From a virus: a DNA stretch of 20,621 nucleotides. Below are positions 7,584 to 20,294 of the stretch, in pieces. The DNA lies in the IMG/VR virus record IMGVR_UViG_3300010885_044505, positions 1-20,621 of that record, one strand, 5' to 3'. The notes beneath the pieces are model-generated. The model was not told the DNA's origin, ran no database searches, and was given only the letters and a program-made list of their open reading frames with translations. The position numbers were made by a program, and so were the translations under genes. The number at the start of each line of letters is the position of its first letter. Position 1 is the first letter of the stretch.

Positions 7584-7786
7584 CCCCCCTCAAAACCGCC
7601 ATGCAACGGCATGGCCTCACGGTGGCCGACGTAGCCCTCCTGACGGGCTCCAAGAGCCGGATGGTAGAGTATTGGCGGGCGGGGCGTTGGCCCCCGCCAC
7701 GGGCTATCCTAATCCTTCTGGCGGCCCTTGATCAGGGCAAGATCAACATCAACTGGCTGGCAGAGCAATTGGAGGTAACACCATGA
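7580..7786 (+). CDS. Small HTH DNA-binding protein (Cro/XRE-like)
   Basis: A 68-residue protein whose fold pattern fits a Cro/CI-type helix-turn-helix. Helix 2 to helix 3 reads LTVADVALLTGSKSRMVEYWRAG (about residues 13-35), with Ala/Leu, Gly and hydrophobic positions where expected. A PPPRAILILLAAL helix and a C-terminal tail follow. It is coupled by ATGA overlaps to genes on both sides. A candidate for the protein that binds the CGCAA-N3-TTGCG palindromes in P1 and P2, since P2 would drive this gene and feedback would be natural. That link is an inference. It could also be a YdaS-like or minimal excisionase-type protein. Confidence 0.72.
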   Translation: MTPLKTAMQRHGLTVADVALLTGSKSRMVEYWRAGRWPPPRAILILLAALDQGKININWLAEQLEVTP

Positions 7787-8049
7787 TTGACGAGACCGGG
7801 AACGTGTATGGGCGGCTTGTAGTGCTTGGCACCAATGGCAACATCACCAAACATAAACGATTGCTATGGTTATGTAAGTGTTCCTGCGGCGCTGAAAAAG
7901 AGATCGAAGGTCGGTATCTACGTCGCAGAAGTGTACAATCCTGCGGGTGCCTCCAGCGCGAGATCAGCCGCAAGCGGTATCGCAATGCCAAAAGCCCTAT
8001 CTGGTGCCGCAGCCCCCTCGACACCATTGACGAGGATATTATTGGTTGA
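7783..8049 (+). CDS. Small Zn-ribbon phage protein (related to N-termini of AP2/HNH phage proteins)
   Basis: An 88-residue basic protein. The N-terminus (MIDETGNVYGRLVVLG) and the cysteine pattern CKCSCG (Cys31, 33, 35) with CGC (Cys54, 56) are typical of a short phage domain that also starts many AP2- or HNH-type DNA-binding and homing proteins. Here only the ribbon and a basic tail (REISRKRYRNAK) remain, with no HNH motif. It may be a stand-alone DNA- or RNA-binding module or the remnant of a longer endonuclease. The start overlaps the HTH gene as ATGA. It is the last gene before the GTAC-repeat region, where it faces the convergent primase-helicase gene. Confidence 0.75.
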   Translation: MIDETGNVYGRLVVLGTNGNITKHKRLLWLCKCSCGAEKEIEGRYLRRRSVQSCGCLQREISRKRYRNAKSPIWCRSPLDTIDEDIIG

Positions 8050-8086
8050 GGTACTCAACTAGGGGACCGAACTTCTCGCCGCACCG

Positions 8087-8126
8087 ACCGTACCACCGTA
8101 CCCCTCCCTAGGAGGGGTGGTACGGT
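8087..8126. other. Bulged 16-bp hairpin in the GTAC region
   Basis: ACCGTACCA (8087-8095) pairs with TGGTACGGT (8118-8126), and CCCCTCC (8101-8107) pairs with GGAGGGG (8111-8117) around a CTA loop. Five unpaired bases (8096-8100) form a bulge on the left arm. No T-run follows on either strand, so it does not look like a simple terminator. A second, smaller hairpin, CGTTTTG-CCC-CAAAACG, follows at 8143-8159. Confidence 0.6.
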
Positions 8127-8157
8127 ACGGTACGGTTTCGGGCGTTTTGCCCCAAAA

Positions 8158-8169
8158 CGTACTAGTACG
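8158..8169. repeat. 12-bp perfect palindrome, copy 1
   Basis: CGTACTAGTACG is its own reverse complement and contains two GTACs flanking a central CTAG. It is followed by GCGAAAGTACGG. An identical palindrome lies 75 bases downstream. It is a likely protein-binding site within the repeat region. Confidence 0.6.
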
Positions 8170-8232
8170 CGAAAGTACGGTACGGTACGCCGGTACGGTT
8201 GAGCTAAGCAATAAGCCCAAAACGTACCGCAA

Positions 8233-8244
8233 CGTACTAGTACG
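8233..8244. repeat. 12-bp perfect palindrome, copy 2
   Basis: Second copy of CGTACTAGTACG, here followed by CCAAAAGTACGG. The 75-base separation from copy 1 is close to seven helical turns, so both sites would face the same side of the DNA. Confidence 0.6.
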
Positions 8245-8285
8245 CCAAAAGTACGGTATGGTACGGTTAAGCATAACAATAGCTA

Positions 8286-10301
8286 TCATGGCTTTGCCCT
8301 CTCCCCTTTTTTCCTTAAAAGCAATCCTGACGCATATGCCCCGTCGCTGACCACCCACCCGTTTTCAAATGGGCTGATGATCTCGGCTGCCAAGAGCGCA
8401 CCCACGGGCTGATCAGCCGACCCCGGCCTCATCTTCTTATCGGCGGTCGCATCATTGCAACTTTCCTTCAGCTTCGCCCTAAGCGACGACCGCGTGACAT
8501 ATGGCGCGCCCTCCTTTTCCTCGGCCCCAGAGGCGTACCAAGCCGCTTCAAATATTTTGAAAAACACCGACTCCTTGCTCTCCTTTTTGGCGGCCACAGG
8601 GGCCTCCGTGAGGTTCACAACGGCGCTCGTGACGGGCTGCTCGTCCTCATCAAACCAACCGGGGATGGTGACGGACGTAAGCTCGGCATAAACCGGCTCG
8701 GCCAATTCGGCATCCTTGGACTTGCGCTGGACAATTGACATTGGCGATCCATCCTTGCCGGGCACAATGCTGATCTCGATGTCCAGCGCCCCGCGCCATG
8801 CGGACGAACCTCGCGCCCTATGCTGGGCCTCCTCGCTGACGCCGGTATGGTGTACGAGCAGCACCGAACATCCAAATTCCGCCATCAGCGCCCCGCAGGC
8901 GTCAAGCATGGTCTTGGCGTCTTGTGCGGAGTTTTCATCCCCCAAAAGAAATCTGTGGAGAGTGTCAACGACGATTAGGCTGGGCCGCTTCGGGAGCGCC
9001 CTGATGTTGTCCACCACCCGCATGTAGCCAGCCGGTGTGTTTAGATCGCACCCGTCGCGAGAGAGCCACATGGACAGCGGCCCCGCGTTCTGGTGGACTT
9101 TCCAAGCCGCTACGCGCCCGCGCAGGCCGTGATGCCCCTCGCCCGCCAGATAAACGACCGTTCCCGTTCGAACGCGGTTGCCTGCCCATTCTGGAACGCC
9201 TGCCGCCATGCGCAGGCACCAATCCAGCACCACGAAGGTTTTGCCGCCCCCGGAGGGTCCGTGGACCATAATCAGGGCTTTATCTTGTAACCATCGTTTG
9301 ACCAGCCACGATATGGGGGCGGGCTGGGCGCAGAAGTCATCAGCGGGGATCAGCCAGTCGTCTTTGGGCGGGACGAGAAGGGCCGCCAAATCATTACCGG
9401 CCTGCGCGTAATCATTGGCGTCCCCCGGCTCTGGCGGCATAACCATGCGAGCCCCGAACTTGGCCGATGCCTGTTCAGCATACCTCTGGCCAACGCCGGA
9501 GGCATCGTTGTCCGCCACAATTACGATGTCCTGCGTGGCCCCGTGGATTTCGCGCAAGATGCCGGTGACGGGGACGAGGTTGGAGGCGGAGTAGGCGACG
9601 ATGCAGGGGCGGTTCGTGGCCTCGTGGATGGTCGCGGCGGTGGCGAAGCCCTCGGCAACATAGAGGGTGCCCGGCTCGTCATTGGTGCCGATCTGCCAAA
9701 AACGAGAGCCTGTCTGTGCGCCTGAGTGATACAGTTTGCCGCCGTCTGCGTCGATGTATTGGAGACTTGAAAGGCTTCCGGCCTGATCGTAGAGCGGGAC
9801 GATTAGCCGTCCGTCGCCGGTGACGCGGGCGCCGTGGGTCTTGATGCCCTTGCGGGCAAGATAAGGATGGTCTGGGCTTGCCGGGCCGCATTCGGACCAA
9901 ATGGTTTCGACGGTGTTGGCGGCGACTTCTTGTTTCTTGGCGTTCTCTGCGTCTCTGAGGGCCTTTGCTTCGGCCATGCGGCGCATATGGATCATTTCTT
10001 CGGTGTGAGTCAACTTGCGGCCAATGTCGGCTCGCCAAGTTGATTCAATGCCTGAGCGCCAACAACCAAAGCGCCCGGCGGGGATGCCGTCCCCGAAGGC
10101 GATGTAAAATCCGGGTTTATCGTGACCGCCTGATCCTTTAGTGCCTGAATTAAACCTATGGATTTTTCCGTCAAGCAGGATCTCTTTTGGCGGGGTTAGG
10201 CCCGCAGCCATGATTGCGTCGCGGAGCTGGTCTTCGGGGGGCAGCGTGTTTTTGGCTGGCGGGGACCAAGGACCGCCGAAAATGTCTGTAATATCAACCA
10301 T
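8286..10301 (-). CDS. TOPRIM primase / RepA-like hexameric helicase fusion (replication protein)
   Basis: A 671-residue replication enzyme. The N-terminal part carries a primase-type region and a TOPRIM fold with Glu217 in VAEGFATA and Asp264/Asp266 in VADNDASG. The C-terminal part is a RecA-fold ATPase of the RepA/AAA_25 kind: Walker A GPSGGGKT at 348-355, Walker B SLIVVDTLHR near 441-450, and a LLVHHTG sensor near 481-487 followed by an ARGSSAW motif. Together these suggest it unwinds the fork and primes the lagging strand, much like other phage and plasmid primase-helicases. The ATG at 10301 has an AAGGTG ribosome site. The frame extends to 10382 but those codons overlap the upstream HTH gene. 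Transcription runs toward the GTAC region just past its stop. Confidence 0.9.
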   Translation of the reverse strand: MVDITDIFGGPWSPPAKNTLPPEDQLRDAIMAAGLTPPKEILLDGKIHRFNSGTKGSGGHDKPGFYIAFGDGIPAGRFGCWRSGIESTWRADIGRKLTHTEEMIHMRRMAEAKALRDAENAKKQEVAANTVETIWSECGPASPDHPYLARKGIKTHGARVTGDGRLIVPLYDQAGSLSSLQYIDADGGKLYHSGAQTGSRFWQIGTNDEPGTLYVAEGFATAATIHEATNRPCIVAYSASNLVPVTGILREIHGATQDIVIVADNDASGVGQRYAEQASAKFGARMVMPPEPGDANDYAQAGNDLAALLVPPKDDWLIPADDFCAQPAPISWLVKRWLQDKALIMVHGPSGGGKTFVVLDWCLRMAAGVPEWAGNRVRTGTVVYLAGEGHHGLRGRVAAWKVHQNAGPLSMWLSRDGCDLNTPAGYMRVVDNIRALPKRPSLIVVDTLHRFLLGDENSAQDAKTMLDACGALMAEFGCSVLLVHHTGVSEEAQHRARGSSAWRGALDIEISIVPGKDGSPMSIVQRKSKDAELAEPVYAELTSVTIPGWFDEDEQPVTSAVVNLTEAPVAAKKESKESVFFKIFEAAWYASGAEEKEGAPYVTRSSLRAKLKESCNDATADKKMRPGSADQPVGALLAAEIISPFENGWVVSDGAYASGLLLRKKGERAKP

Positions 10302-10473
10302 TTGCCGCACCTTCCAGATAATCGCTGAGAGCTTTAAGCACCCTATAACTTGGGTTGGCAGCCTCGTTATCCCGCACGCCACGGATGGTGTTGTAGTGCA
10401 GGCCCGTGGCCTTGGAGATCATGCTAAGTCGCCGGTCTCGCAATGCAAGCCGGATGGCTTCGATTGACATCAT
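10294..10473 (-). CDS. 59-residue HTH protein, probable regulator coupled to the primase-helicase
   Basis: A short frame starting with tandem ATG codons at 10473/10470, preceded by a strong GGAGG ribosome site. The product shows a Cro-like helix-turn-helix: LSMISKATGLHYNTIRGVRDN (about residues 16-36) followed by a RVLKALSDYLEG helix. Its stop lies eight bases inside the primase-helicase gene, implying translational coupling. It probably binds operators in the divergent region 10474-10590, where a 30-bp dyad is present, and may control both its own operon and the recombination operon. The HTH fold is clear by pattern; the target is inferred. Confidence 0.8.
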   Translation of the reverse strand: MMSIEAIRLALRDRRLSMISKATGLHYNTIRGVRDNEAANPSYRVLKALSDYLEGAANG

Positions 10474-19796: not shown

Positions 19797-20294
19797 ATGA
19801 AAACGATGGAAGAGATGCAAGCGCACTATAAAGCTGTTCGAGAGCGTTTAAGGTACACGCCGCCCTCAAAGCCAATCATCATCCCCCCGATTGAAGCGGC
19901 AGCGCCGGAGCCGGAGCCAGCGCCCGCTCCAGCACCTGAGCCCAAAATACAGATTGTAAGCATAGCTCCTTTGCCGCCTGCCCAGAGCATTTTGCATGAA
20001 ATCGCTCTTAAACATGATGTAACGGTCAGGGACATAACAGGGCGAGATCGCAAAAAGAAATACATGAAAGCCCGGCAAGAGGCCGCTTACGAGTTGAAAT
20101 TAAGGTTAAACCTTTCTTTCCCGAGGATTGGGCGCGTTCTGGGTAAGCGGGATCACACAACCATCTTGCACAGCGTTCGCAAACACGCAGAGTTAAATAA
20201 TTTGCCGCCGTTAAGCTTTCCTAAAGAAGTTCAGGCGCATAGTGACTACACCAAAACGGAGAACCAAAATGAACATCTTGAACCTAGCCTATGA
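19797..20294 (+). CDS. DnaA domain IV-like DNA-binding protein
   Basis: A 165-residue protein with a helical N-terminus, a Pro/Ala/Glu linker (PEPEPAPAPAPEP, about 37-49) and a C-terminal domain (about 62-133) that matches the DNA-binding domain of DnaA. It shows HEIALKHDVTVRDITGRDR, ARQEAAYEL, LSFPRIGRVLG and the signature KRDHTTILH (117-125). The AAA+ ATPase region of full DnaA is absent, so it should bind DnaA-box-like sites without ATP-driven assembly. It may recruit or block host initiation, act as a regulator, or mark the phage origin. The ATG at 19797 has a GTGGAG ribosome site. The end overlaps the small membrane gene at 20269. Confidence 0.88.
   Translation: MKTMEEMQAHYKAVRERLRYTPPSKPIIIPPIEAAAPEPEPAPAPAPEPKIQIVSIAPLPPAQSILHEIALKHDVTVRDITGRDRKKKYMKARQEAAYELKLRLNLSFPRIGRVLGKRDHTTILHSVRKHAELNNLPPLSFPKEVQAHSDYTKTENQNEHLEPSL

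Follow-up and report, generated by a model that had tools for sequence, protein, structure and literature searches.

Organization of the locus

The window analysed here, a stretch of 20,621 nucleotides, is a virus contig without an attached host genome (IMG/VR record IMGVR_UViG_3300010885_044505). Within it, a repeat-rich region separates two converging genes: a minus-strand primase-helicase gene, whose stop is at position 8286, and a plus-strand open reading frame (ORF) of 88 aa, which ends at 8049. The features of this region, with their strand in parentheses where one applies, are:

8051-8285 (minus): proposed replication origin, a GTAC/CGTAC iteron array with a hairpin, just past the 3' end of the helicase gene; GTAC density, and a place kept in relatives
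8090-8101: two word copies in inverted orientation, on the far side of the hairpin
8100-8118 (minus): 19-nt hairpin ACCCCTCC-TAG-GGAGGGGT, with direct word copies on one side and inverted ones on the other; folding, and relatives
8119-8137 (minus): three direct pentamers (ACCGTACCGTACCGTAC), before the hairpin on the helicase strand; a triple kept in relatives while its letters change
8146-8152 (minus): GGGCAAA box (TTTGCCC on the plus strand), part of the fixed frame; GGGGCAAA is enriched in relatives
8158-8169: palindrome CGTACTAGTACG, copy 1
8233-8244: palindrome CGTACTAGTACG, copy 2
8286-10382 (minus): primase-helicase ORF, 698 aa, with Toprim_3, AAA_25 and a predicted C-terminal winged helix; Pfam, 1g8y match, AlphaFold models
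8298-8576 (minus): predicted winged-helix domain of the helicase, residues ~603-695; AlphaFold2, structural matches
8412-8459 (minus): recognition segment, residues 642-657, which varies with the repeat word; covariation
10294-10473 (minus): 59-aa HTH regulator that overlaps the start of the helicase and is conserved in relatives; three-frame translation, same layout in annotated phages

The AAA_25 domain of the helicase is recognized by Pfam (E 4.7e-35), and the sole solved relative found by sequence, RSF1010 RepA (1g8y, E 6e-10), matches over this domain. Residue numbers follow the 698-aa ORF. The true start is probably at position 10301 (residue 28, 27 codons inside the longest ORF), since the 59-aa HTH gene overlaps there, as it does in annotated relatives. 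The 88-aa protein (7783-8049, plus strand), which adjoins the proposed origin, resembles an HNH endonuclease domain (phrog_374, E 1.4e-19) and can be compared with the origin-directed nuclease Odn of ICP1. Another plus-strand gene, at 19797-20294, encodes a protein with a DnaA C-terminal DNA-binding domain (Bac_DnaA_C, E 1.4e-16); the window contains no perfect DnaA box.

The original prediction, of a GTAC-saturated region between converging genes, is borne out on recounting. Seventeen GTAC tetramers are present in the 214 nt from 8051 to 8264, out of 46 in the whole window; three blocks end in GGTACGGTT (8129-8137, 8192-8200 and 8260-8268); spacings of 5 and 10 nt are found; and the array lies 21 nt past the stop of the TOPRIM/AAA_25 primase-helicase gene. 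Words as short as these, built on a self-complementary tetramer, might be expected to arise by chance or in low-complexity sequence. However, 300 Markov-1 simulations of the window give at most 5 GTAC per 214 nt (mean 2.8), and the place and frame of the array are common to more than 100 relatives (see below). The probability of a chance origin is therefore negligible, and we count this explanation as already refuted. GTAC is the only tetramer of the window to attain such a density in any 214-nt stretch.

On the helicase strand, the array consists of modules of direct pentamers (ACCGTACCGTACCGTAC), a spacer, and inverted copies, with the hairpin as the last spacer. This hairpin is predicted to fold strongly as single-stranded (ss) DNA (z -5.7) and is not accompanied by a T run. 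The functional unit is larger than 8051-8264: it extends up to about 8285 and includes the 19-nt hairpin and the TTTGCCC box. Searches of the array region for promoters, terminators and Rfam matches found none. Multiple short direct repeats are thus present in cis beside a putative initiator gene, which is the arrangement of an iteron origin.

Arrays beside homologous helicases

A motif scan of IMG/VR yields 42 contigs, about half of which have the helicase with an array right after its stop. Since the scan also matches loci without the helicase (the other half, approximately), it was used only as a lead, and homologues were then gathered by protein alone, which avoids selection on the motif. 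The pooled set contains 107 non-redundant helicases, a minority of them from the motif scan or from a search of annotated phages; 105 have enough downstream sequence for analysis. Within the 300 nt after the helicase stop, a 5-mer is repeated at least 7 times at 103 of the 105 loci versus 14% of background windows, and at least 9 times at 78 of the 105 versus 2.4%.

The repeated word differs from locus to locus. It is CGTAC in the clade of the window and CGGAC, CGGAA, CGTAA, CCCCT, TGACCC or TACCC in others; among named phages it is GGTACA (Idiomarinaceae phage 1N2-2), GGTTCA (Alteromonas phage PB15 and XX1924) or GGGACA (Salicola phage CGphi29), and a scan of bacterial genome contigs adds further words and wider host groups. 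The earlier expectation that the repeats would be conserved beside the same helicase thus holds for the arrays, which recur next to homologues, but not for the word itself. As read from these sequences, the GTAC motif is one state of a switching code rather than a conserved signature. A DNA-level search of named phages with the window array gives no match, in line with a word that switches.

The place of the array can vary. At three loci (L108, L127 and L182) a small inserted gene or other repeats, such as the ATATGCG-type repeat that precedes the array in L182, displace it from the helicase stop. In L093 the array was not found directly, and MW202475 (L048, 43% identity) has no comparable array. 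A search of PLSDB plasmids returned no full-length helicase homologue.

A fixed frame around a changing word

While the word changes, the frame that holds it stays: across relatives it consists of direct copies, a hairpin, inverted copies, and the GGGGCAAA box. A hairpin with a stem of at least 6 follows the word triple at 45 of 53 loci, compared with 2.3% of shuffled segments, and its stems have many different sequences. The hairpin core CCTTTAGG is found at 40 of 103 loci (0.1 expected) and the GGGGCAAA box at 42 of 103 (0.4 expected). DnaA boxes (TTATNCACA) are also concentrated here, with 78 in 36.7 kb of array regions versus 28 in 654 kb elsewhere, an enrichment of about 50-fold; they often lie at +6, +18 and +197 from the helicase stop, and 35 of the 107 loci have at least one. 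The suggestion that the DnaA-domain protein binds the array gains no specific support, as the window array has no DnaA box, although a third of the relatives have one.

Since the array directly follows the helicase gene and contains a strong hairpin, it might instead be a regulatory or mRNA 3' element, bound by the helicase and used for autoregulation or attenuation. The lack of a recognizable terminator or promoter argues against this, as does the 50-fold enrichment of DnaA boxes around the arrays of relatives. In addition, direct and inverted word arrays that flank a palindrome are typical of the DNA sites bound by initiators. We consider a regulatory element very unlikely and an origin the preferred reading.

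Helicase residues that follow the word

Covariation was measured by comparing distances between origin 5-mer spectra with those between 10-residue windows of the helicase, corrected for the divergence of the remaining protein. Within the helicase, covariation with the word is confined to residues ~637-666, with a peak at 647-656 (partial r 0.453, 0/2000 permutations); before residue 600, the partial r across all loci is at most 0.10. For pairs with less than 20% divergence the peak rises to 0.77 (residues 649-658), and the best window before residue 600 gives 0.24. Nearest neighbours share a word in 79% of cases when chosen by residues 642-657, versus 45% when chosen by residues 28-600. Among pairs at most 12% diverged, the word has changed in 48 of 56 with a changed segment and in 1 of 35 with an unchanged segment, and at greater divergence an identical segment goes with an identical word in 88 of 94 pairs; these pairs share sequences, so the counts are not independent observations.

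Other phage proteins tested show no comparable covariation with the word: values are at most 0.15 for Sak4 and at most 0.13 for the HTH regulator. This bears on the idea that the array is a partition (centromere-like) or packaging site, as iteron clusters can also serve as centromeres and terminase-like genes are located a few kb from the array in the window. However, the words track the helicase and not the other genes tested (Sak4 and the HTH regulator), relatives contain DnaA boxes, and no ParA or ParB was detected when ten window proteins were scanned against Pfam. We regard a partition or packaging role as highly improbable.

A further alternative accepts that the array is an origin and supposes that the words are read by another protein, with the C-terminal domain of the helicase covarying through adjacency and joint recombination. 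The winged-helix segment is indeed only ~150-200 nt from the array, and the close pairs L032/L168 and L058/L062 resemble swaps of domain plus array. Yet the signal peaks within the domain and drops to ~0.1 at residues 676-691, which are nearer the array; proximity or simple linkage alone is thus insufficient. The absence of signal in Sak4 and the HTH regulator, the parallel recurrence of single-residue switches (S655Y and V649Q), and a clade that keeps the winged helix as its own gene (both described below) also weigh against a separate reader, which we judge unlikely. The preferred reader is the helicase itself.

Word switches between close relatives

Helicases that are nearly identical over residues 28-600 can be followed by different words. 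Examples are L061 (CGGAA) and L112 (CGTAA), 97.4% identical over this region; L032 (CGTAC) and L168 (CGTAA), 97.7%; and L015 (CGTAC) and L178 (CGGAC), 95.8%. On a tree of residues 28-600, the word has changed between CGTAC and CGGAC five times and residue 655 between S and Y five times, with S655 accompanying CGTAC and Y655 accompanying CGGAC in 4 of 4 independent pairs. CGGAA and CGTAA have interchanged seven times, and V649 accompanies CGGAA and Q649 accompanies CGTAA in about 5 of 6 pairs, with none opposite. Taken singly, the sign tests are not significant (P 0.125 for residue 655, about 0.06 for residue 649), and both residues were selected on the data for which they account; the exception is L239, a held-out genome contig with the Y655-P motif and the word CGGAC. 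Other loci (L121, L138/L140/L141 and L240) have CGTAA with other residues; thus, there is no one-residue-to-one-base code. D648 was considered as a reader of word position 5 and dropped, as agreement is limited to 2 of 3 independent pairs and L240 is a counterexample.

In two pairs, L058/L062 and L032/L168, the helicases are similar or near-identical up to residue 600, and the recognition segment and the word are strongly different. This pattern suggests that domain and origin were swapped together by recombination.

A predicted winged helix and its split genes

In the AlphaFold2 model, the C-terminal region of the helicase contains four helices (residues 603-617, 631-639, 644-650 and 659-665) followed by a beta wing (669-678), with a pLDDT of 86.8. 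Structural matches are mostly to winged helices of the ArsR, MarR and CRP types (best Z 7.1). Pfam has no model for the domain, and Foldseek gives no match at E under 0.001. The assignment as a winged helix (wHTH) thus has moderate support from modelling. The covarying residues are placed by the model on helix 644-650 and the loop that follows it.

In eight contigs (L128/L297, L298-L303 and L154) the gene is split: the helicase core is followed by the array and hairpin, and then by a stand-alone winged-helix ORF. The core ends just before the winged helix, mostly at a stop after ...AETR, and the separate ORF encodes ~80 aa and is equipped with a ribosome-binding-site-like sequence. The array lies before position 3501 in L297-L303 (before 1815 in L299) and at 882-1305 in L154. 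In L128 a second wHTH-like ORF follows the stand-alone winged helix. These contigs indicate that the reading domain is a module that can be detached in nature and remains with the origin.

Proposed function

Very probably, judging from these comparative data, region 8051-8285 is a phage replication origin that is bound by the adjoining primase-helicase through its own C-terminal winged helix. The arrays that recur beside homologues support the possibility of a phage origin raised at the outset, and the covariation together with the gene fission makes the helicase's own winged helix the predicted binder. GC skew, which had been proposed as a check, is uninformative: for the window and four complete phages, the cumulative minimum falls within ~1-2.5 kb of the array, but divergent transcription, which starts at the same place, explains it equally well.

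In the mechanism we propose, the primase-helicase would use its winged helix to bind the repeated pentamers, probably forming oligomers on the direct and inverted copies around the hairpin. The bound helicase would then open the DNA, load itself, and prime synthesis, so that replication would initiate at the array; in many relatives, host DnaA may assist at the flanking DnaA boxes. The word would serve as a private address, with ~ten winged-helix residues (~642-657) and all copies of the word switching together.

We also lean, with some reserve, towards a broader picture. A large and widespread group of phages would have private, mutually orthogonal origins that are read by a RepA-type (RecA-fold) primase-helicase. 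The word would be set by ~ten decodable residues and would switch repeatedly, both by point changes and by swaps of domain plus array, and in one clade the array would separate the helicase core from a reading domain encoded by its own gene.

Significance

In open-access papers, we found no description of these origins. The present analysis supplies a candidate origin for a common type of phage primase-helicase for which none was found described. It also provides many natural initiator-origin pairs in which the DNA word and the apparent reading residues have changed together, some of them near-isogenic, with helicases ~97% identical outside the reading domain and different words. Two questions become directly testable: how an essential initiator can move to a new target and still function, and whether word switches make co-infecting phages or satellites incompatible. 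At the level of sequence, the system resembles a natural code by which replication origins are recognized.

Comparison with known systems

By sequence, the AAA_25 domain of the helicase is related to that of RSF1010 RepA (1g8y). RSF1010 RepA is not known to have a TOPRIM part or a winged helix, and in RSF1010 the iterons are bound by a different protein, RepC. In geminiviruses, a small part of the initiator, Rep, covaries with short iterons; however, this is a rolling-circle Rep of plant ssDNA viruses and an unrelated protein. TIGR guide-RNA arrays, in which 8-12-nt repeats alternate with 9-nt spacers in units of ~36 nt (PMC12045711), were ruled out, since the words here are 5-nt direct copies without variable spacers.

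Other systems share parts of the arrangement. The primase-helicases of pRN1 (ORF904) and phage BIP-1 contain a winged helix, and a stem-loop just 3' of the gene is conserved in structure and variable in sequence (PMC4234260). A predicted winged helix and a sequence-variable stem-loop in the same place are found here as well; however, the pRN1 and BIP-1 proteins have an archaeo-eukaryotic primase and an SF3 helicase, and no switching iteron words are reported for them. In the PLE satellites of Vibrio cholerae, the RepA DNA-binding domain varies in step with the origin iterons and is swapped together with them as a module, possibly driven by the origin-directed nuclease Odn (PMC8263062). Domain and iterons likewise vary together here, where this is seen as covariation, and by analogy nuclease attack on the origin is a possible driver of word switching. 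PLE differs in that its initiator is of the RepA_N type rather than a helicase, its iterons are ~30 bp, and it has few variants rather than many words.

In SaPI Rep and SCCmec Cch2, the C-terminal domain binds short iterons located just downstream of its own gene, which for Cch2 are three 5-nt direct copies of AAGTG (PMC7581432). The feature in common is a set of short iterons right after the helicase gene. The proteins differ: SaPI Rep and Cch2 contain DUF927 or D5_N/Primase_Cterm and work with other primases or polymerases, whereas the protein here combines TOPRIM with a RepA-like AAA_25 domain, and Pfam finds only AAA_25 and Toprim in the window helicase, with no DUF927 or D5_N/Primase_Cterm. 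Also unlike those systems, the word here switches within a conserved frame, and many members have DnaA boxes. The best explanation, by analogy, is that these loci would work as the SaPI Rep and Cch2 origins do, on an unrelated type of helicase.
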